The notes under the pieces were generated by a model. That model had not been told where the DNA came from. It saw nothing but the letters and a program-made list of their open reading frames with translations, and ran no database searches. A program made the translations under genes and the position numbers. Source: Polynucleobacter sp. AM-26B4 (lineage in GTDB: Bacteria > Pseudomonadota > Gammaproteobacteria > Burkholderiales > Burkholderiaceae). Taken from it: DNA of 64,000 nucleotides. Shown here one piece after another: positions 43,213 through 52,560 of this stretch (position 1 is its first letter; each line of letters starts with the position of its first letter). The DNA lies in assembly GCF_018882285.1 (NCBI RefSeq), contig NZ_JACVOT010000001.1, positions 1,371,916 to 1,435,915 on the forward strand, read 5' to 3'.

Positions 43213-43290
<78 letters not shown>

Positions 43291-43339: not shown

Positions 43340-43663
43340 TTAATTGCAGTATGTCTGAGTACCAATTGTTTGACAGGTTTTCCCATTTGAATAATAGGTT
43401 TGATTGCCAATTTGCTGGGCAGTAACTCCATTTGAGTAATAGGTTTGATTGCCGATTTGCTGAGCAGTCGTTCCATTTGAGTAATAGGTCTGGTTGCCGA
43501 TTTGTTGAGCTGTCGTTCCGTTGGAGTAATAAGTCTGATTGCCAATCTGTTGCGATGTAGTTCCATTTTGGTAATAGCGTTGATTACCAATTTGCTGATA
43601 ACTCTGTTGAGCAAAAGCAATACTTGTAACGGACATAAGTAAAAAACCTAGTACTTTCTTCAT
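43340..43663 (-). CDS. Exported tandem-repeat protein
   Basis: 107 residues. A signal peptide (about 18 residues, ending in AFA) is followed by five 15-residue repeats with consensus QQIGNQTYYSNGTTA (residues 23-97) and a partial sixth unit that brings two Cys (KTCQTIGTQTYCN). The Gln/Asn/Tyr/Gly/Thr-rich units have the look of a beta-solenoid or adhesive/amyloid-like secreted protein. No family is recognised. AGGAG lies before the ATG. Units differ by few substitutions, so copy number may vary between strains. Confidence 0.8.
   Translation of the reverse strand: MKKVLGFLLMSVTSIAFAQQSYQQIGNQRYYQNGTTSQQIGNQTYYSNGTTAQQIGNQTYYSNGTTAQQIGNQTYYSNGVTAQQIGNQTYYSNGKTCQTIGTQTYCN
43343..43597 (-). repeat. 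45-bp coding tandem repeat, five full units and a partial one
   Basis: Each unit encodes 15 residues of the exported protein. Units are nearly identical at the DNA level around the ATTGCCAATTTGCTG-like core and the TAATAGGTTTG segment, and abut without spacers. In-frame, coding and gap-free, so not CRISPR. Confidence 0.9.
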
Positions 43664-43776: not shown

Positions 43777-43803
43777 TCAATGGCTCAACCTATGAGCCAT
43801 TGA
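43777..43803. promoter_or_regulatory. Operator candidate 1 of the WYL regulon
   Basis: An 11-bp perfect inverted repeat TCAATGGCTCA / TGAGCCATTGA with a 5-bp spacer (accta). Its core TGGCTCA-N5-TGAGCCA recurs exactly at 51552-51570, and a variant core occurs before the WYL regulator gene. It is 41 bases upstream of the small-protein ATG at 43845. Confidence 0.55.
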
Positions 43804-43808
43804 GCCCT

Positions 43809-43836
43809 CAAAATGAGCTATCAAACACTCATTTTG
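43809..43836 (+). promoter_or_regulatory. Second inverted repeat next to the Shine-Dalgarno
   Basis: CAAAATGAG (43809-43817) and CTCATTTTG (43828-43836) form a perfect 9-bp inverted repeat with a 10-base loop. Its last base is the first G of the GGAGG Shine-Dalgarno of the next gene. In RNA it would fold beside the ribosome site; in DNA it could be a second operator. Confidence 0.4.
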
Positions 43837-43844
43837 GAGGTGGT

Positions 43845-44207
43845 ATGCGTAACTACACTTACATTGATGGCACCCGTTTTATAGTGGTCAACCTATTTCG
43901 CAGTCTGAGATATGACATTGACCGCTTAGACATGAGCTGGGTGGGGGATCAAAAGCCGATCTTTTCAAGAGGCTTTAGGATCGTTGATAACGATGAGAAC
44001 AATACAGTGACTCTTGATGGTGGGGACGCCGACAATCTCATCTACAGTCTGACTTACATGTTCTCAAACGAAGAAACCACGGAAGAGTTCAGAGAAGCCG
44101 TTGATGAGTTCATCAAGGATGCGCTAATCACTAAAAACTACCTGATCAACAGCCAAGGTAAAAAAGAGAGCGACAAAACTACAGAAGCTGAATCTTTACT
44201 TCATTAA
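43845..44207 (+). CDS. Hypothetical protein downstream of double palindrome
   Basis: 120 residues from ATG 43845, chosen because GGAGG (43836-43840) is spaced correctly; a TTG at 43800 in the same frame lies in the palindrome. The protein is acidic and soluble: MRNYTYIDGTRFIVVNLFRS, then FRIVDNDENNTVTLDGGDAD, and a charged tail. No family is recognised. It converges on the WYL gene, and the pair share a terminator hairpin that spans both stop codons. The upstream palindromes suggest WYL control. Confidence 0.7.
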   Translation: MRNYTYIDGTRFIVVNLFRSLRYDIDRLDMSWVGDQKPIFSRGFRIVDNDENNTVTLDGGDADNLIYSLTYMFSNEETTEEFREAVDEFIKDALITKNYLINSQGKKESDKTTEAESLLH

Positions 44208-44231
44208 TACGCTCAATTTATTGAGCGTATT
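44206..44231. terminator. Bidirectional hairpin between convergent stops
   Basis: AATACGCTCAA-ttta-TTGAGCGTATT, an 11-bp perfect stem. The last bases of the small-protein stop codon are in its left arm and the WYL stop codon overlaps the loop, so it probably ends both transcripts. The T-run is short. Confidence 0.6.
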
Positions 44232-45192
44232 TCTTAAGAGAATTCTCAAGCTTTGAGATGACTTTCTTCTTCAAGTCAGCGGGGGCTAGAACTTCTACCT
44301 CGTCGCCATGCTTGAGAATATCCATGATCAGTTCAGGATCTTGGCTGTACTCAAACTCTAAAACATAAGAGCCATCTTTTTCAAAATGGCTGCGTTGTTC
44401 TGGGTGCCAAGACTCCCCTGAAACCCATCTTGATGCTTTTGGACTAAATTTAAGTTTGGCTGTCTTATCTGCTCCGCCAGAGAAGATGCCGTAACTCTTT
44501 GTGAAATGCTCATTCATATCCTTATCAGAAATGTCTTTGCACTTCTCATTGAGTAAAACCACATCTCTGATGCCATCTAGCGAGAAGCTTCGTAAAGCTT
44601 CTCGCTTATGACAATAAGCATCCAAGTACCAGTTTTCTCGATAATGAATCAAACGCTGAGGTGACACCTCGCGTTCCTCGACTTCATCGCGGTCCTTGGT
44701 ATAAAAAAGGATTTGAATCATTTCTCGTTTGAGCAGGGCATTACCAATATCCGCAAAATACTTGCTAGAGTTCTTTCGGGACCCCATGCTGATCAATTTG
44801 ATGCGCTTACGCAACTCTTTGGAGCTTGTTTCACCGTTGCCTAGGATCGCATCGATTCTGGTCATCAATGGCGCGATATGAGGACCAATGAGGCCGCCTT
44901 GGTCCAAAGAAGCCAGGAGATGATTCATGGTCACTAGGGCGGTGGTTTCCTCTTGAGAAAACCACATGCCGTGCAGCTCAAACTTAGGGCCTGGACCTTG
45001 TTTACCAAATTTATAACCACGCTCATATGAATCCCACTCAATCGGGGCATTCAAATTATTCTTCATGAAAGCCAGATCGCGTTTGAACGTGGCCAATGAA
45101 ATATCGAGCTCTTGTAAAAAAGCGTCTGTACTCACAACCCCACGACTATTGAGTAGGTTGTATATCTTGTAAACGCGCTCCATGTTGTTCAT
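44218..45192 (-). CDS. WYL-domain transcriptional regulator (BrxR/CapW/PafC-like)
   Basis: 324 residues. A DeoR-type helix-turn-helix at the N-terminus (MERVYKIYNLLNSRGVVSTD, LDISLATFKRDLAFMKNNLN, residues about 4-60), a WYL domain around 150-215 with VSPQRLIHYRENWYLDAYCH and LRSFSLDGI, and a C-terminal WCX-like domain. WYL regulators of this layout (BrxR, CapW and relatives) commonly repress phage-defence islands and respond to nucleic-acid or nucleotide ligands. It lies beside the methyltransferase/helicase/nuclease cluster, with a matching palindrome in its own upstream region. The role as its controller is inferred. Confidence 0.9.
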   Translation of the reverse strand: MNNMERVYKIYNLLNSRGVVSTDAFLQELDISLATFKRDLAFMKNNLNAPIEWDSYERGYKFGKQGPGPKFELHGMWFSQEETTALVTMNHLLASLDQGGLIGPHIAPLMTRIDAILGNGETSSKELRKRIKLISMGSRKNSSKYFADIGNALLKREMIQILFYTKDRDEVEEREVSPQRLIHYRENWYLDAYCHKREALRSFSLDGIRDVVLLNEKCKDISDKDMNEHFTKSYGIFSGGADKTAKLKFSPKASRWVSGESWHPEQRSHFEKDGSYVLEFEYSQDPELIMDILKHGDEVEVLAPADLKKKVISKLENSLKKYAQ

Positions 45193-45492
45193 AAGCCAGC
45201 CTCATATTTAGCACTTTTGATGACTTTAGCACTTTATGAGATTGGTAGCTCATTTAATGAGCTAGTGCTGCCTTAGCTCTGATTCCGCGCTTGTATTTCA
45301 ACTGCTGTATTGAAATCAAGATTTAAAGATGGCACCTTATGTATGGTGGGTACTGGATTTTGCTTGCTTAAAAGAATGAAAATTATTCAACGCTTTGAAA
45401 TTAAAAAAACGTTTCTATAAGGCACGAGCGAATTTGATGTGAAAATCAAAATAGAAAGAAACACTAAATAGTCATGTACTTGCGTAAATACG
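45193..45492. other. 300-bp regulatory gap upstream of the WYL gene
   Basis: Upstream of the WYL gene: direct repeats TTTAGCACTTT at 45207-45217 and 45225-45235 (18-bp period), then TAGCTCA-tttaa-TGAGCTA (45246-45264). The remainder (45265-45492) is AT-rich without a credible gene. Confidence 0.45.
45246..45264. promoter_or_regulatory. Operator candidate 2 (WYL autoregulation)
   Basis: TAGCTCA-tttaa-TGAGCTA: the same GCTCA-N5-TGAGC core as the palindromes at 43777 and 51552, 54 bases upstream of the WYL gene start. Position fits autorepression. Confidence 0.5.
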
Positions 45493-46176
45493 TTAGTAGT
45501 AACGAAGAGATTTATCAACAATTTTTCTAATGTAGTCACTGTTAAACCAAAAAGCTTGCTTAACAATTTTATTGCCTATGGAATCAGTATCAAAATCAGA
45601 GCCATTTTGAGCTTTTGGCCGCATGTGTATAAAATTTGTAAATGAGCTTGTTGGCAGGCTACTAATATTTTTTCCGCCTGACGTTTTAAATGTTTTGCAT
45701 GCACCAGTTTGAACTTTTTTTTGATACATTTCCCATTCGGCTCTAATCATAGCTTCATCGAAATTATCAGGAAACCATAAAAATGATTTCCCAATTTTTC
45801 TTTCACTAACATGACTAATCTTTGAGGTTGATAAAATTGGTATAAACAACAGGGAGTTTAAATATTTTTTTAAATGGCTTTGCTCCCAAGTTTCAAGCTC
45901 AAATTCTTTAAGTTTAATGGGGCATAAAGATACCGATTCCCAGGGTTTATTTGTAGCTGGGTTAATTCTAATGACCTTAATTTTAGTATTAGAGTCTTTT
46001 GGTAATACATTAAGATTTGCAAAGAACTTTTTAAATAATGTTGCCTGACCATTCTTTGACTTTGAAATATCAATATTTAGTTGCTTTGCTAAAGTAATCA
46101 TACTTTGACCTTCAAGCATTGTCATAATGTTGATTAAGTCATCGCCTGAAGTTACGCCACTTTTACTAAAAGTCAT
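45493..46176 (-). CDS. Stand-alone MutH/Sau3AI-fold protein lacking the catalytic ExK
   Basis: 227 residues. The order of conserved blocks follows MutH and the C-terminal half of Sau3AI: a helical start (EGQSMITLAKQLNIDIS), WEQSHLKKYLNSLLFIPI (about 97-114), SFLWFPDNFD (131-140), HMRPKAQN (184-191, the MutH IRPKA motif) and KQAFWFNSDYI (206-216). Where MutH has D-x6-ExK (GVELKTIP), this protein reads TKIKVIRIN (64-72), so the nuclease residues are missing, as in the non-catalytic Sau3AI domain. It is probably a DNA-binding/recognition subunit. Divergent from the C5-methyltransferase with 45 bases between. The alternative is a decayed restriction enzyme, although the frame is intact. Confidence 0.75.
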   Translation of the reverse strand: MTFSKSGVTSGDDLINIMTMLEGQSMITLAKQLNIDISKSKNGQATLFKKFFANLNVLPKDSNTKIKVIRINPATNKPWESVSLCPIKLKEFELETWEQSHLKKYLNSLLFIPILSTSKISHVSERKIGKSFLWFPDNFDEAMIRAEWEMYQKKVQTGACKTFKTSGGKNISSLPTSSFTNFIHMRPKAQNGSDFDTDSIGNKIVKQAFWFNSDYIRKIVDKSLRYY

Positions 46177-46221
46177 TTAATTAATTTTTATTTACTAGAA
46201 ACTATAAGTTATCATAATCCA
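46177..46221. promoter_or_regulatory. 45-bp divergent promoter region, no Shine-Dalgarno on either side
   Basis: Pure AT-rich gap between the MutH-like and methyltransferase starts. -10-like elements TATAAG (46203-46208) and CATAAT (46213-46218) are so close to ATG 46222 that a leaderless or nearly leaderless message is likely. Neither gene has a recognisable ribosome-binding site. Confidence 0.4.
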
Positions 46222-47496
46222 ATGAAAATTATTGAACTTTTTGCAGGTATTGGCGGTTTTCGGATTGGATTTGAATCAGCCAATAAGAATTTAAATTCAG
46301 ACTACTTTAAGGTGGTTTGGAGTAATCAGTGGGAGCCTAATGAGAGGGCTCAATACGCATCTCAAGTTTATGTCAATAAGTGGGGTGAAAAAAATCATAG
46401 CAATGAAGATATTGAGACGATTTGCGAGCGGGAAATGTCTTCTGGATCAGGCGAAAAAATCCTGCCGAAATACGATTTATTAGTTGGTGGTTTTCCATGC
46501 CAAGATTACTCAGTAGCTAAAACACTTCGAAGTGCAGAGGGTATTCATGGAAAAAAAGGTGTTTTATGGTGGTCGATATACAAAATTATTTCGATTACAG
46601 CGCCCAAGTACGTTCTCTTAGAAAATGTTGATAGATTAATAAGTTCCCCGGCCAAGCAACGGGGAAGAGATTTCGCAATTATGTTGTCATGTTTGAATGA
46701 TTTAGGGTATGTGGTTGAGTGGCGAATCATTAATGCTGCTGAGTATGGGTTCGCTCAAAGAAGAAAGAGGATATTTATTTTTGCCTCAAAAGAGACAACG
46801 AAATATGCAAAAAAAATTATTAAATCTCCGTTCACATCAATTTATAAAAATGGTATTTTTCCGCAAGCTTTTCCAGTTATAGGCAAAGAAAAAAATTTAG
46901 AAGAAAATTTACTCCCTAATTTTTCAATTAGTGATTTAGATTTGGATGTGATAACAACTAATTTTAATAAGGGCGGTAAAAAAACTCCATTTTTAAATTC
47001 CGGTATCTCATTTAAAAGAAATATATGGACTGAGCGAGTTATTCCAAATTACTCTGGCAAGTTTGATTGCATTAGAAATCATCTGGTAAAGGATTCTGAT
47101 GTGCCGGCTGAGTACTACATATCTAAAAAAGAATATGAAGAAAAATGGTTTCCCTTAAAGGATGCAAAAAAAATAGAAAGAATAAGTAAATCTGGAATTC
47201 CCTATCTTTATTCTGAAGGCAGAATTGCCTGTCCAGATGAGTTGAATAAGCCTGCTCGGACCATCATAACTTCGGAGGGGGGGAAAACCCCATCAAGATT
47301 TAAGCATATTATTTTTAAGGATGGTAAGTACAGAAGGTTGACACCAGTTGAGCTTGAGGGATTAAGTGGGTTTCCGAAGAATCATACAAGGCTGGACATT
47401 ATTCCAGATAAGAAGCGAGCCTTCTTTATAGGTAATGCACTTGTAACAGGTGTTGTGGATAGGTTGGGGATTTCAATTTATAAACTGATTGGGTGA
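46222..47496 (+). CDS. DNA (cytosine-5-)-methyltransferase
   Basis: 424 residues with a full motif set: I IELFAGIGGFRIGFE (4-18), IV GGFPCQDYS with catalytic Cys93, VI LLENVDRL (132-139), VIII FAQRRKRIF (177-185), and IX/X LSGFPKNHTR and FIGNALVTGVVDRL at the C-terminus. The target-recognition part (about 200-350) contains YYISKKEYEEKW and ARTIITSEGGKTPSRFKHII, a form I associate with methyltransferases paired with Sau3AI/MutH-type enzymes; a GATC-like site is only a guess. It is first gene of a four-gene operon (12-base gap to the ParB-like gene) and would protect host DNA. Confidence 0.93.
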   Translation: MKIIELFAGIGGFRIGFESANKNLNSDYFKVVWSNQWEPNERAQYASQVYVNKWGEKNHSNEDIETICEREMSSGSGEKILPKYDLLVGGFPCQDYSVAKTLRSAEGIHGKKGVLWWSIYKIISITAPKYVLLENVDRLISSPAKQRGRDFAIMLSCLNDLGYVVEWRIINAAEYGFAQRRKRIFIFASKETTKYAKKIIKSPFTSIYKNGIFPQAFPVIGKEKNLEENLLPNFSISDLDLDVITTNFNKGGKKTPFLNSGISFKRNIWTERVIPNYSGKFDCIRNHLVKDSDVPAEYYISKKEYEEKWFPLKDAKKIERISKSGIPYLYSEGRIACPDELNKPARTIITSEGGKTPSRFKHIIFKDGKYRRLTPVELEGLSGFPKNHTRLDIIPDKKRAFFIGNALVTGVVDRLGISIYKLIG

Positions 47497-47508
47497 GTTG
47501 AGGGCAAG

Positions 47509-48795
47509 ATGATGGATGAAAATTTTTTGGGTAAGTCTAGGCAAGAAAGGTTGGATATATTGGAACGAGCTGAGCTTGAGGCAGCTCGTGGGGATACTCG
47601 TACCTTCCTAATTACAAACTTTAAACGCAAGTCGCATGATTTACCAATTTTGCGCGTTAATATTTCAGTGCCAAAGTACAGGTTAAGGAATGGTAGAACA
47701 TTAACCTATCAATTAGAGTATGTTGCAAAACATACAGTGGATAAAGATTTCTTTAGTGCTGACCCTGAAAATATTGAAGCTCAAAAAGCGCAATATGAAA
47801 TATTAGAAAAAATGATTAATGAAGAGAGGCTATTGGAAACATTTCAAAGCACTCAAAAAAAGAACGGTGAAATTCAAACAGAGCCGTTAGTTCTAGATCA
47901 TGATGGATTTGTTGTTAATGGTAATAGGCGTATTACAGCCTGGCGTAAGTTGTTATCGGACAATCCAAAATCATATGGGGCGTTTGAATATATAGATGTT
48001 GTTAGGTTGCCCCCTTGTGAGGAAAGGGAAATTGTTGAGTACGAAGAGGCTATTCAGGTTAAACCGGATATTAAAAGTGAATATGCATGGCATTGTCGTA
48101 TAGGAATGATGCGACAAAGGCAATTTATTGACAATGTGGACCCCGAGGTTATTGTTAATAATTACAAACTTACAGATGTTGCAGAGTTGAATGATCAAAT
48201 TGGTTACTATCAATTGGCTGAAAACTGGTTAGAGCAATCTGGTAAAACTAATGAGTGGTCTGAGGTTGATCAAAATGAACAAGCTTTTAAGATGCTTTAT
48301 GAAGCAAAAAAGAAAAGGGGTAAGAAATTAATGCCTCATCATGAGATGGCTTTAGAGGCAGCTGCTTTTACTTTAATAAGTACGCCTAGACAAGATAAGG
48401 CAGGGCGGTTGTTTACTCAAATACCTGAATTGGGAAAATCACTTGAGGTCATTGTCGACAAAGTAGCAGAGGATAAGGGTTTTTTAGATCTTCCTGAAAA
48501 AGAAAGATTTAAGAGTTTTGCTCAATTTGTAACAATAAAAACTAATGAACGAGAAGAGGTTAAAGAAAAGTCCCAAATAATTTTTGAGGCCATAGAGGAA
48601 GCTAAGGAAGAGCTTAAAGGCGAAAAAAATGCTTCTTTTGTTGAGGATAAAGTTAATGAAGCAATTAAATGCTTAAATCAAGCCAAGAGGAATTTTAAGT
48701 CCCCTAAAAACCCATCAACCATTGTTTCTAACATGGATAAAATCTTAAGTTTGACAAATGAACTAAGAAAAAAGGTGCTTGAGGATAAAAAATAA
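47509..48795 (+). CDS. ParB/Srx-like domain protein in a methyltransferase operon
   Basis: 428 residues. An N-terminal half includes TEPLVLDHDGFVVNGNRRIT then AWRKL (about 125-147), matching the ParB GxRRxxA box (GNRRITA), which binds CTP or other NTP in ParB-like proteins. A following EEREIVEYEEAIQVK segment resembles the ParB ENxxR region loosely. The C-terminal part is helical and charged (about 250-428, coiled-coil prone, VKEKSQIIFEAIEEAKEELK). Ribosome site AGGGCAAG is upstream. Its stop overlaps the helicase start (TAATG). Possibly an NTP-dependent clamp, loader or adaptor; function unproven. Confidence 0.72.
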   Translation: MMDENFLGKSRQERLDILERAELEAARGDTRTFLITNFKRKSHDLPILRVNISVPKYRLRNGRTLTYQLEYVAKHTVDKDFFSADPENIEAQKAQYEILEKMINEERLLETFQSTQKKNGEIQTEPLVLDHDGFVVNGNRRITAWRKLLSDNPKSYGAFEYIDVVRLPPCEEREIVEYEEAIQVKPDIKSEYAWHCRIGMMRQRQFIDNVDPEVIVNNYKLTDVAELNDQIGYYQLAENWLEQSGKTNEWSEVDQNEQAFKMLYEAKKKRGKKLMPHHEMALEAAAFTLISTPRQDKAGRLFTQIPELGKSLEVIVDKVAEDKGFLDLPEKERFKSFAQFVTIKTNEREEVKEKSQIIFEAIEEAKEELKGEKNASFVEDKVNEAIKCLNQAKRNFKSPKNPSTIVSNMDKILSLTNELRKKVLEDKK

Positions 48796-50603
48796 TGCCT
48801 CATCTAAAAGTTGACTATAGTCGCGAAAACTCGTCTGCGATTTTTACTTTCTCAGATGATGTAAAAGCATCCTTGCGAATGAGTATTTTTACTTACTGTC
48901 AGATATCAGGTTTAGAAAGCTATAAGAGATTATCTGACTTTCGGTTTCAGATGGATTGGTCAGATTTTTTATCAATATGTGATGGTATATCTGAGCGTGT
49001 TGAGTTCGAGGATGTTGAGTTTATTTTCGATGATGATGCTCGAAATAAATTCAATCTGGCGATAAAGGACAGAGAAGTCTTAACTGAAAGTTCTGCTCCA
49101 AGCCCCATAGATGCAAGTATTTTATTGGGGACTATTCAAGCAAGTCACTTTAAACGTAATTTAACTGCAGAGCAGCTTAGAAATGTTTGTAAGTTAGCGT
49201 CTTTGCGCGGTGGAGCGTCTTTTTCTGTCCCTGGCGCAGGTAAAACTACCGAAGCATTGGCGACTTACGCGTATCACAGTAAAGACCTTGACAAGGTTTT
49301 AATTGTGGCACCTAAGAATGCATTTATTTCTTGGGATGACCAGATTCAGGATTGTTTCTTAAATCCTCCGGCTATATATCGTATGCAGGGTGCAAATTTA
49401 AATGTGGATGAAATAGATGCTGCTAGATTTTTAATCATCACATATCAAAAATTAGCTAATGAAGTTCCGCTACTTAAAAAGCTTTTATCAAATCATCGGG
49501 TTATGATGATTCTTGATGAGGCGCATAGAATTAAAGGTGGTAAAGGTAGGGTAACTGCCGAAGCAGTACTGAGCCTAGCAGATTTGGTTGACAGGAGATT
49601 ACTTCTTACTGGTACGCCAATGCCTCAAAGCATTGAGGATTTGAAGCCGCAAATTAGTTTTTTATATCCGGCATACCAAGTTCACAACATTGAAGATCCT
49701 GTTTCTGCAATTTCTAATATATTTGTTAGGACCACAAAAGCTGAGCTAGATGAATACTTGCCGTCAATTGTTTGCGAGCGTGAAATGGTTAAATTAGGTT
49801 TTGACCACAGGCATTTATATGATTTAGTTAAGAAAGAGGAGATTCGCAAGTTATCTGGATTAAATCTAACTGATAGAAGTGCTCTTAGGAGGGCTGGCCG
49901 CTCTGTAATGAGATTATTGATGTTAGCAGTAAATCCATCAATTATTGGTAAATTTGATAGTGATGCATTAAATGATTTGTTAATTGCAGCCTGTAAAAAT
50001 GAGTCCCCAAAAAATAAACGAGCATGTGAAATCGCCAGGAAAAATGCTAATAATGGTGAGAAGACTCTTATATGGACAAACTTTAGACAGAATGTCGAGC
50101 TAATAACTACGCAATTGAAAGATTTGGGAGCTGTTCACATTCATGGAGGTGTTGATGCTGGCTCTGATGAGGATGAGGAGACGAGAGAATATAAAATCAA
50201 GCAATTCAATCAAGCGCCCGATTGTATGGTAATGGTTGCAACTCCTGCAGCTGCTTCAGAAAGTATAAGTCTTCATCATGGTTGCCATAATGCCGTTTTT
50301 ATTGATAGATCATTTAATGCGGCACAGTATATTCAGGCACAAGACAGGATTCATAGAGTCAGTAATGATGGTAAGAATAAGCCAGCTGTAAAAATTAAAT
50401 TTTTAGAATGTGAAGACTCAATTGATCAAACTGTTTCAAAACGTCTTGCCGAAAAGATTGAGAATATGTCAAAGGTTCTTAGAGATGACTCTCTAAGAGA
50501 TATGATAAACGTAAGCCTGGATTTGGAAGAGGGTGTTCTGGATGAGTCAGAAGGCTTGGAGGTCGAAGACGTTCGAGCTCTTATTAAGGATATGGCTTCT
50601 TAA
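48795..50603 (+). CDS. SNF2-type superfamily-2 helicase/translocase
   Basis: 602 residues. After about 120 residues without known domain, RecA-1 has Walker A SVPGAGKT (144-151), LIVAPKNAFISWDDQI (motif Ia), DEAH (241-244) in MMILDEAHRIKGG, and LLTGTPMPQSIEDLKP (motif III). RecA-2 has TLIWTNFRQNVELIT (motif IV) and AQYIQAQDRIHRVSN (motif VI, Q-D-R-x-H-R). This is the SNF2/RapA layout, i.e. a dsDNA translocase rather than an unwinding helicase. It is translationally coupled to genes on both sides (TAATG before, 2-base gap after), so motor and nuclease are probably made in fixed ratio. Confidence 0.9.
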   Translation: MPHLKVDYSRENSSAIFTFSDDVKASLRMSIFTYCQISGLESYKRLSDFRFQMDWSDFLSICDGISERVEFEDVEFIFDDDARNKFNLAIKDREVLTESSAPSPIDASILLGTIQASHFKRNLTAEQLRNVCKLASLRGGASFSVPGAGKTTEALATYAYHSKDLDKVLIVAPKNAFISWDDQIQDCFLNPPAIYRMQGANLNVDEIDAARFLIITYQKLANEVPLLKKLLSNHRVMMILDEAHRIKGGKGRVTAEAVLSLADLVDRRLLLTGTPMPQSIEDLKPQISFLYPAYQVHNIEDPVSAISNIFVRTTKAELDEYLPSIVCEREMVKLGFDHRHLYDLVKKEEIRKLSGLNLTDRSALRRAGRSVMRLLMLAVNPSIIGKFDSDALNDLLIAACKNESPKNKRACEIARKNANNGEKTLIWTNFRQNVELITTQLKDLGAVHIHGGVDAGSDEDEETREYKIKQFNQAPDCMVMVATPAAASESISLHHGCHNAVFIDRSFNAAQYIQAQDRIHRVSNDGKNKPAVKIKFLECEDSIDQTVSKRLAEKIENMSKVLRDDSLRDMINVSLDLEEGVLDESEGLEVEDVRALIKDMAS

Positions 50604-50605
50604 TT

Positions 50606-51475
50606 ATGGTGTCGGCTGGTTTAGTAGATGCTTTAGTTGAATTAATTTTAAAAATTAATAGCGGTTATCACTTACATGTAAATGTAACGATGCGCCGAGT
50701 TTTTAACAGCTGTGATTTAGCATCTATCTGTCAATTAGGCATTAGATATAAATTGCTTAAAGAAAACCATGATGAGCTTATCGAACTCTCTGAATCAGCC
50801 GCAATTTTAATTAAATCAGAAAAAAAATTATTTATTAAGCAAGCAATTGTAAAGATGTATGTTCAATTTGATAGGCCAGTAATTACTTCTTTAGCCCATC
50901 TTGGAGTTGCGCATTGTTTAGCTTCGATGAGTGCAAGTGAGCGTCAAATTTTTAGGGAAAGTGGACTTTTAGAAGATTCTCCAACTAATGAAATGATCGA
51001 CTGGTGGGATGGGTTAGCAAGAGAACGCCGAGGGGATATTAATGCTCTCAAAGAAGATGTTGGTCGTCGCGGTGAAGAGATTGCAATTAATTATGAGCGA
51101 AGCAGAACTGGCCTAGAGCCAATATGGCAATCAATTTATGACAATACTGCTGGTTATGATATTTTAAGTTGTATTGATTTTGATTTAAGCCACCGCTTGT
51201 TTATTGAAGTTAAATCTAGTACTTTGGCTAGATCTAAGGCGCATTTTTATCTTTCTAAAAATGAATACAATTTTGCTAAGCAAAAAGAAAATTACCATCT
51301 CTATCTTTTTAATTTTTTGAATAATGATATCTACATGGCAATTGCTGACATTTCAATGATTTCTGATTCAATACCTCAAAGTATTGGATTTGGAGAGTGG
51401 GAGTCATGCTCTATTCCATTTAGTCACCCGAATTTAGAATTTAAAAAAATTGAAATTAGTGCATTTAAGAAGTAG
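50606..51475 (+). CDS. NOV_C/DUF3883-type PD-(D/E)XK nuclease
   Basis: 289 residues. The C-terminal half is a NOV_C (DUF3883) nuclease-like domain: GRRGEEIAINYERSR (153-167), TAGYDILS with D185, and LFIEVKSS with E201 and K203, giving D...ExK of the PD-(D/E)XK fold, then YLSKNEYNFAKQKENYHLYL. The N-terminal half (1-140) is helical and unrecognised, perhaps the contact with the helicase. It follows the SNF2 gene by 2 bases. It is the best candidate for the cutting subunit, since the MutH-like neighbour has lost its catalytic residues. Confidence 0.82.
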   Translation: MVSAGLVDALVELILKINSGYHLHVNVTMRRVFNSCDLASICQLGIRYKLLKENHDELIELSESAAILIKSEKKLFIKQAIVKMYVQFDRPVITSLAHLGVAHCLASMSASERQIFRESGLLEDSPTNEMIDWWDGLARERRGDINALKEDVGRRGEEIAINYERSRTGLEPIWQSIYDNTAGYDILSCIDFDLSHRLFIEVKSSTLARSKAHFYLSKNEYNFAKQKENYHLYLFNFLNNDIYMAIADISMISDSIPQSIGFGEWESCSIPFSHPNLEFKKIEISAFKK

Positions 51476-52092: not shown

Positions 52093-52560
52093 ATGCTCTA
52101 CCACCGCCCACAACTCCTTCAGCACATCCGTGACCAATTCGTCATTGACTGGCATGGGGTTCATGGAGCTAATCACTGGGCCAGGGTCTTGCATCATGGC
52201 CAACGCATCGCTGAACAAAGACAAGCTGACTTACTCGTTGTAGAACTATTTGCTTTTTTGCATGACAGCTGCCGCTTTGATGACTACAAAGACCCACTGC
52301 ATGGAGAGCGGGGTGCAGAATTCGCCCACGGCATCAATGGACAACACTTCCACCTAGACAGTCAGCAGCTCGATAACCTCTGCTATGCTATTCGTCATCA
52401 CTCAGGTGGTGAAGTCTCTACCAATCCAACCATACAAAGCTGTTGGGATGCTGATCGCTTAGATCTTGGAAGAGTAGGCATCATCCCATCACCTAAATTC
52501 TTATCTGTTGAAGCCTCTCAACTGATTGATGAAGCATTCAACTGGAGCATCAGTTCATGA
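52093..52560 (+). CDS. HD-domain protein
   Basis: 155 residues. VIDWHGVHGANHWARVLHHG (metal His) and LFAFLHDSCRFDDYKD (HD pair) fit the HD phosphohydrolase fold, with CYAIRHHSGGEV and WDADRLDLGRVGI as later metal-binding His and Asp. The short single-domain form suggests a nucleotide or small phosphoester hydrolase. It overlaps the next gene by 4 bases. No Shine-Dalgarno is evident. Confidence 0.82.
   Translation: MLYHRPQLLQHIRDQFVIDWHGVHGANHWARVLHHGQRIAEQRQADLLVVELFAFLHDSCRFDDYKDPLHGERGAEFAHGINGQHFHLDSQQLDNLCYAIRHHSGGEVSTNPTIQSCWDADRLDLGRVGIIPSPKFLSVEASQLIDEAFNWSISS

Follow-up and report, generated by a model that had tools for sequence, protein, structure and literature searches.

The locus lies in a window of 64,000 nucleotides (the whole stretch of DNA that was analysed) from Polynucleobacter sp. 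AM-26B4, whose genome assembly comprises 1.67 Mb in 17 contigs. On the plus strand, a C5-cytosine methyltransferase of Sau3AI type (424 aa, 46222..47496) is followed by a ParB/Noc/KorB-fold protein (428 aa, 47509..48795), an SNF2-family ATPase (602 aa, 48795..50603) and a NOV_C/DUF3883 PD-(D/E)XK nuclease (289 aa, 50606..51475), spaced by a 12-base gap, a TAATG overlap and a 2-base gap, respectively. A MutH/Sau3AI-fold protein of 227 aa (45493..46176, minus strand), the reader candidate, is divergent from the methyltransferase across an intergenic stretch of 45 bases (46177..46221). The set is bordered by a WYL regulator (44218..45192, minus strand) and by an ORF that we take to be HD-domain-like (52093..52560, plus strand), identified as the other border by its position at genus loci. 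The gene coordinates, strands and spacings given in an earlier sequence-only reading were confirmed from the sequence.

The core (45493-51475) had a GC content of 0.357, compared with 0.447 and 0.449 on its two sides, and is a low-GC insert in a chromosomal hotspot. Of 61 genus genomes, 21 had relatives of the WYL gene and nine had the HD gene. Eight genus sites, in seven genomes, were fetched for comparison. The WYL-HD distance was ~0.5 kb at four of them (G016, G018, G038 and G059 contig 6), where module genes were not found, 1.0 kb in G004, 2.3 kb on G059 contig 2 and ~25 kb in G010; the G053 site held a WYL piece alone. The sequence-only reading had counted the WYL regulator as a member of the system. 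Given these four empty sites and the host-like GC content of the gene (0.441), that part was dropped: the regulator is probably a resident neighbour at the hotspot and not in the cassette, although it may possibly control it. At the same hotspot in G138 (locus L146, same genus), the HD and DUF3567 genes are accompanied by another ParB-SNF2 pair, a divergent one, which adjoins an ORF that is presumably integrase-like. The DUF3567/BTH_I0359-like ORF of the window (43800-44207, plus strand) scored under both family cut-offs, and in several genomes of the genus a DUF3567 relative was close to the HD gene. A small putatively exported protein with ~17-residue repeats (QQIGNQTYYSNGTTA) is encoded at 43340-43663 (minus strand), adjoining tRNA-Pro (43213-43289).

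The reader candidate matched Pfam MutH above the family cut-off (6.3e-12). Against the NCBIfam Sau3AI model NF040973 it scored 78.6 bits (cut-off 300) over model positions 248-474 of 475, the second half, and against the MutH model NF003458 it scored 66.2 bits (cut-off 243). For blastp, full-length plasmid Sau3AI-family proteins were split into N and C halves and Klebsiella MutH was added. Five Sau3AI C halves were matched (3e-16, 2e-15, 4e-11, 5e-11 and 8e-8), as was Klebsiella MutH (4e-15), with E values of 0.05 or worse for those N halves that matched at all. Close relatives of the window reader were not found in viral contigs. In a tree of 18 sequences, the window reader adjoined the clade of Sau3AI C halves (support 92/93, not starred), and the putative readers of Priestia and Lactiplantibacillus plantarum plasmids fell within the C halves (100/99). 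The nearest kin in the tree thus appears to be the non-catalytic Sau3AI half; kinship with MutH is possible, as the alternative joining the two had a P value of 0.24 with long branches in play. Our first reading, a plain Sau3AI C half, was set aside on the same tree result and the near-equal match to Klebsiella MutH. Identification as a Sau3AI endonuclease was rejected on its single domain, its altered catalytic motif and its sub-threshold score, and identification as MutH on the loss of the glutamate and a score likewise under the cut-off.

MutH and the catalytic Sau3AI halves read PDF...GVELK or variants of it. In the window reader the catalytic E-L-K is K-I-K (context NTKIK), so the canonical glutamate is lost and the protein is predicted to be inactive, as the sequence-only reading had proposed. 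The glutamate is also lost in the Priestia (NISIK) and L. plantarum (GIKLK) readers, and is kept in one of the five Sau3AI C halves compared (L099, NIEVK). A shift of the active site to elsewhere in the reader is possible. The IHMRPKA loop of the window reader is kept, aligning with the LQLRPKA loop of MutH, which we take to be its GATC-reading element. Passages of a study of Sau3AI (PMC548270) describe a C-terminal domain that has lost its catalytic residues and turned into an effector-binding domain, and give GATC as the site read by the enzyme.

The window methyltransferase matched Pfam DNA_methylase (1.4e-57), with intact PCQ and ENV motifs. It was 43-44% identical, over 424-441 aligned columns (its full length), to three methyltransferases located beside full-length Sau3AI-family endonucleases (L098, L099 and L092), which places it among C5 methyltransferases of Sau3AI type. 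Likewise, the methyltransferase by the Priestia ParB set was 91% identical to that by the L099 endonuclease. This kinship makes GATC the likely site, and the window system probably reads it. GATC counts lent this site no support. The window core had 10 GATC where 21.4 were expected, the lowest ratio among the palindromes tried, a weak result given that 16 were tried; across 70 modules of relatives there were 1998 against 2119.0 expected (O/E 0.94), similar to the flanks (0.96). In L. plantarum, a very short patch repair endonuclease is annotated by the set with the dead Sau3AI half (L094, 7750-8187, minus strand), as expected with a C5 methyltransferase alongside.

The motif NGNRR was invariant in the ParB-like family, with GNRR in 71/71 aligned sequences; the corresponding motif of ParB/Noc/KorB clamps is GERR. 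Solved ParB chains gave no match at the sequence level. The structure model of the protein matched ParB/Noc/KorB clamps over the N-terminal CTPase fold and the DNA-binding domain (10-18% identity), and the protein may therefore bind CTP. The SNF2 protein, the predicted motor, matched Pfam SNF2-rel_dom (2.8e-19) and Helicase_C (3.2e-10), and its translation carries a Walker A motif (PGAGKT) and DEAH, as expected of an SNF2 ATPase; a genome scan at E ≤ 0.001 gave a single match. Walker A and DExH motifs were both present in 74/82 SNF2 ORFs of relatives, fragments counted. The NOV_C protein matched its Pfam family (1.4e-11). Residues E157, D185, E201 and K203 were invariant among 51 aligned sequences, D..ExK was kept in 71/72 NOV_C ORFs, and the model (pLDDT 94.3) had a Holliday junction resolvase as its top Foldseek match (E 0.006, probability 1.00), together identifying a PD-(D/E)XK nuclease. 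DUF3883 was earlier predicted to be the restriction nuclease domain of SNF2 operons (PMC3710099) and is counted among presumed type II restriction groups (PMC10609329); PMC4081073 added nothing further.

To determine the conservation of the gene set, genome and viral contigs were scanned with the ParB-like alignment, and 80 of 115 relatives were kept together with seven viral loci. These 87 loci are 85 distinct ones (L083 duplicates L027 and L087 duplicates L085), and the copies were left in the counts. An SNF2 gene was adjacent to the ParB-like gene on the same strand in 76/87 loci. NOV_C came next in 70 of these 76, the six misses being five contig ends and L066. ParB-like, SNF2 and NOV_C genes are thus a conserved operon, in order in 70/87 loci. 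The co-occurrence check proposed with the sequence-only reading supports its view that methyltransferase, dead restriction-fold reader, SNF2 and NOV_C form one system. A BglII/BamHI-fold gene lay directly upstream of the ParB-like gene, on the same strand, in 66/76 loci; two of the ten misses were at contig starts, leaving 8/76 loci where the gene was absent and no contig start was to blame, so the reader is not universal. A methyltransferase occurred within the stretch examined in 70/76 loci. Counted over the 85 distinct loci, SNF2 occurred in 74, NOV_C in 68, the upstream BglII-fold gene in 64 and a methyltransferase in 68. The commonest methyltransferase layout across the 76 loci was a same-strand N4/N6 enzyme upstream, the sole methyltransferase in 43 of them; 12 loci had a C5 methyltransferase and eight an amino-methyltransferase downstream on the opposite strand. 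In L011, L028, L030 and L036 an amino-methyltransferase directly precedes the ParB-like gene and a BglII-fold gene was not found, the reader being either missing or unrecognised. Nine ParB-like loci lacked an adjacent SNF2 gene (L053, L062, L065, L067, L068, L071, L074, L077 and L078; counted as misses in the 87), and the three of them whose neighbours were read (L053, L062 and L078) had other genes there.

The tree rows included Pseudomonadota, Bacillota, Verrucomicrobiota, Planctomycetota and Thermodesulfobacteriota. The ParB-like gene was rare in the genus and family samples (2/151 and 2/398, E ≤ 1e-10), its only occurrences being the window and the divergent one in G138. In the phylum sample (4/398, E ≤ 1e-20) it was found in the window, L150, L151 and L152. 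L150 is a five-gene set and an exact copy of L085, L151 holds ParB-SNF2-NOV_C-methyltransferase with no BglII-fold gene found, and L152 has the ParB-like gene alone. As L150 is a copy, the gain from this sample is a single new core set.

The sequence-only reading lacked a further piece of evidence: in relatives, a second, unrelated dead restriction fold occupies the same gene position. PF09195 was matched at E ≤ 1 by all 40 BglII-fold members scanned, with 1.2e-14 as the best value; the first member gave 1.6e-5 and 25.1 bits, just under the cut-off of 26, and 18 of the 40 also matched the BamHI family. A profile of the family found the structures of BstYI (1.5e-7), BamHI (7e-5) and OkrAI. The IEVQ of BstYI and MEFE of BamHI (E-x-Q/E-x-E) align on LCLQ (C-x-Q) of the family, and we take the aligned glutamates of the two enzymes to be catalytic. 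None of 68 BglII-fold members had glutamate at this position. The 65 members matched by pattern had Cys (44), Gln (15), His (4), Ala (1) or Ser (1), and three more were assigned Cys by eye; D91, K94 and E133 were invariant in the family. As judged from these alignments, the canonical catalytic glutamate is gone from two unrelated restriction folds that occur alongside this core. The BglII/BstYI/BamHI group recognises GATC-centred sites, RGATCY among them, and both the BglII and MutH/Sau3AI folds thus come from enzymes of GATC-centred sites.

Cousin sets showed further heterogeneity in reader, methyltransferase and nuclease. On plasmids from Priestia (L091, L092) and L. plantarum (L094), ParB and SNF2 genes and a dcm gene for a Sau3AI-type methyltransferase occur with a dead Sau3AI half, which in Priestia forms the N-terminal region of a 512-aa protein encoded on the other strand. 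A PLD domain is present at the SNF2 N terminus in L091 and L094, where NOV_C is missing; the L092 SNF2 protein is 99% identical to that of L091, and this Priestia plasmid carries an additional Sau3AI-family endonuclease with a methyltransferase beside it. Exiguobacterium has ParB and a long SNF2 protein with dcm ~5 kb off, Streptomyces has ParB, SNF2 and NOV_C, and Kozakia has these three together with two genes upstream for which Pfam gave no match. On Enterococcus, Lactococcus and Limosilactobacillus reuteri plasmids (L096, L112, L114), a type III Mod-Res pair is followed by ParB-like and SNF2 genes on the same strand. The one such pair scanned (L096) had methyltransferase and endonuclease domains present, and a description of the arrangement was not found in the open-licence PMC papers examined. 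Three Enterococcus plasmids encode proteins of 860-869 aa before ParB and SNF2 (L095, 2904-5513; L103, 2851-5433; L113, 2047-4641); the two scanned (L095 and L103) gave a weak sigma-70 region 4 match and no recognised nuclease domain. NOV_C was not found in the type III Mod-Res and other Enterococcus, Lactobacillaceae and Lactococcus ParB-SNF2 sets, and such sets may point to a wider role of the core pair. One report (PMC6098607) describes a Lactococcus plasmid with a PLD-SNF2 protein and a type IIG-like methyltransferase.

In a ParB+SNF2 tree of 1005 columns, built on 46 rows selected from 81 to cover their spread, the window fell within the NOV_C group. Its neighbours there were BglII-type rows, and both the PLD-type rows and the type III plasmid rows were distant; in a quick first tree of all 81 rows it stood beside a whole BglII-type clade. 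Grouping the three rows with a MutH/Sau3AI-fold reader was rejected (P = 1e-20). Placement of the window outside all other NOV_C rows was also rejected (P = 0.004), a weaker result with a long window branch (1.91) and groups named after the first tree. The simplest reading is that the dead MutH/Sau3AI fold joined this core in separate unions, which agrees with the reader tree, where window and plasmid readers are likewise apart.

Taken together, we consider it reasonably probable that these genes encode an undescribed family of ATP-dependent restriction-modification, built from a dead reader, a clamp, an SNF2 motor and a NOV_C cutter. The Sau3AI-type methyltransferase would mark host GATC as GATm5C, a specificity suggested by its kinship, and the dead MutH/Sau3AI-fold protein would bind unmodified sites without cutting them. 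The reader would then recruit or load the ParB/Noc-like protein, probably a nucleotide-gated clamp on DNA, together with the SNF2 motor, and ATP-driven movement or the meeting of complexes would activate the NOV_C nuclease to cut the DNA. We infer the function of the system, its site, its nucleotide use, the behaviour of the clamp, the sequence of steps and the effect on phages from the evidence above. The core model is independent of whether the reader stems from Sau3AI or MutH. The mechanism put forward in the sequence-only reading thus stands as the best current model, with the WYL regulator removed and the ParB-like protein, which needed a role of its own, promoted to clamp.

We consider it unlikely that the dead restriction-fold protein is instead a regulator (a controller or methylation sensor of the methyltransferase operon), with DNA recognised by the ParB-like or SNF2 protein. 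Its divergent position 45 bases from the window methyltransferase and the eight loci lacking a BglII-fold gene agree with such a role. However, in 66/76 relatives the gene directly precedes ParB in the same orientation, where a controller would hardly be expected, GATC is absent from both the 45-base intergenic stretch and the 300-base MutH-WYL gap, and the role is filled by two unrelated restriction folds. Somewhat less credible still is a dead fold that cuts through a shifted active site, as one half of a type II pair with accessory ParB, SNF2 and NOV_C proteins: the invariant D91, K94 and E133 could be catalytic and type III Mod-Res pairs, of which the one scanned (L096) has its methyltransferase and endonuclease domains, are also accompanied by ParB and SNF2, yet the canonical glutamate is missing from all 68 BglII-fold members and from the window, Priestia and L. 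plantarum readers, and passages of PMC548270 describe the nearest Sau3AI half as non-catalytic.

A similarly small chance attaches to the ParB/Srx-fold protein being itself the nuclease or NTPase effector, with NOV_C auxiliary. One report (PMC5512222) presents ParB/Srx domains as nickases or NTPases, NOV_C was not found in several Bacillota ParB-SNF2 sets, and two Enterococcus sets pair the core with the 860-869-aa protein lacking a recognised nuclease domain. Against this, the model matches CTPase clamps over both domains, the active residues of NOV_C are conserved, and PLD is fused to SNF2 in L091 and L094, where NOV_C is missing. That the genes are loose neighbours in a defence hotspot seems very improbable: spacing and content of the hotspot do vary within the genus, but the tight operon spacing and the conserved co-occurrence, in order in 70/87 loci and several phyla, contradict it.

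Beyond the restriction system favoured here, we tentatively suggest, at rather less than even likelihood, a modular defence family. A ParB-like nucleotide-gated clamp and SNF2 motor would form its core, catalysis-less restriction enzymes of at least two unrelated folds (BglII and MutH/Sau3AI) would serve as plug-in readers, and methyltransferase and nuclease (NOV_C or PLD) would be swapped along with them; a sliding clamp would be loaded at unmodified sites, with no cutting there, as parS loads ParB. What is new in the present gene sets is the recurrent use, as probable readers, of restriction folds that lack the canonical catalytic residue. If true, repeated disarming of restriction enzymes would be a route from type II specificities to ATP-dependent restriction, and DNA immunity would gain a clamp of ParB type. 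The idea is directly testable, since the known site of the related active enzyme predicts the site read.

Seven locus proteins were scanned with PADLOC, and named defence systems were unmatched there and in NCBIfam, in line with the sequence-only reading. The ParB members scanned (window, L003 and L057) matched nothing in PADLOC-DB 2.0.0, and the other genes matched only parts of models or generic methyltransferase models. DISARM comprises DrmA, DrmB and DrmC with a methyltransferase; the window SNF2 protein matched only parts of DrmD and DrmA and the methyltransferase matched DrmMII, with DrmB and DrmC absent among the matches listed (for the methyltransferase, the best 25 of 62). The BREX signature is PglZ with a BrxC-type ATPase, neither of which was among the matches listed for the seven proteins, where only parts of the BrxH helicase appeared. 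Druantia is marked by DruE, Zorya by ZorA and ZorB and Dpd by DpdA, and the seven proteins gave only DruM, ZorD and DpdE cross-matches of the methyltransferase and SNF2 protein. A description of this gene set was not found in the open-licence PMC literature, outside which lie most subscription journals and all bioRxiv preprints.

Among related systems, CglI and NgoAVII perform ATP-dependent C5 restriction with an R subunit that carries a B3-like and a PLD domain. They share with the present set a C5 methyltransferase, motor and nuclease, and the Priestia and L. plantarum cousins have a PLD nuclease; B3 and PLD domains were not found in the window proteins (Pfam), which have a ParB-like protein and dead restriction enzyme instead. 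Passages on BREX-related BR systems and COG1743-DUF499-SNF2-nuclease operons (PMC12839542, PMC7641849) describe a methyltransferase and Swi2/Snf2 motor with a restriction endonuclease or PLD nuclease, and BR helicase proteins with an inactive restriction-endonuclease-like domain internally. The methyltransferase, SNF2 motor, nuclease and inactive domain in those passages resemble our set, whereas a ParB-like gene of this kind and a separate dead type II gene were not found there, and COG1743 operons have a DUF499 ATPase. The Sau3AI type II system (GATC) resembles the window set in its methyltransferase (43-44% identity) and in the reader, which is nearest to the C-terminal half, but the window set lacks a catalytic MutH domain and adds SNF2, ParB-like and NOV_C proteins. 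The reader of relatives shares the fold of the BglII/BstYI/BamHI type II enzymes and mostly sits, as they do, with a methyltransferase gene, but its catalytic glutamate is replaced and its gene precedes a ParB-SNF2-NOV_C operon. Finally, the ParB-like protein resembles ParB/Noc/KorB CTPase clamps in the predicted fold of its N-terminal and DNA-binding domains and differs from them in carrying GNRR for GERR and in its operon partners, which here are a methyltransferase, an SNF2 motor and a nuclease.
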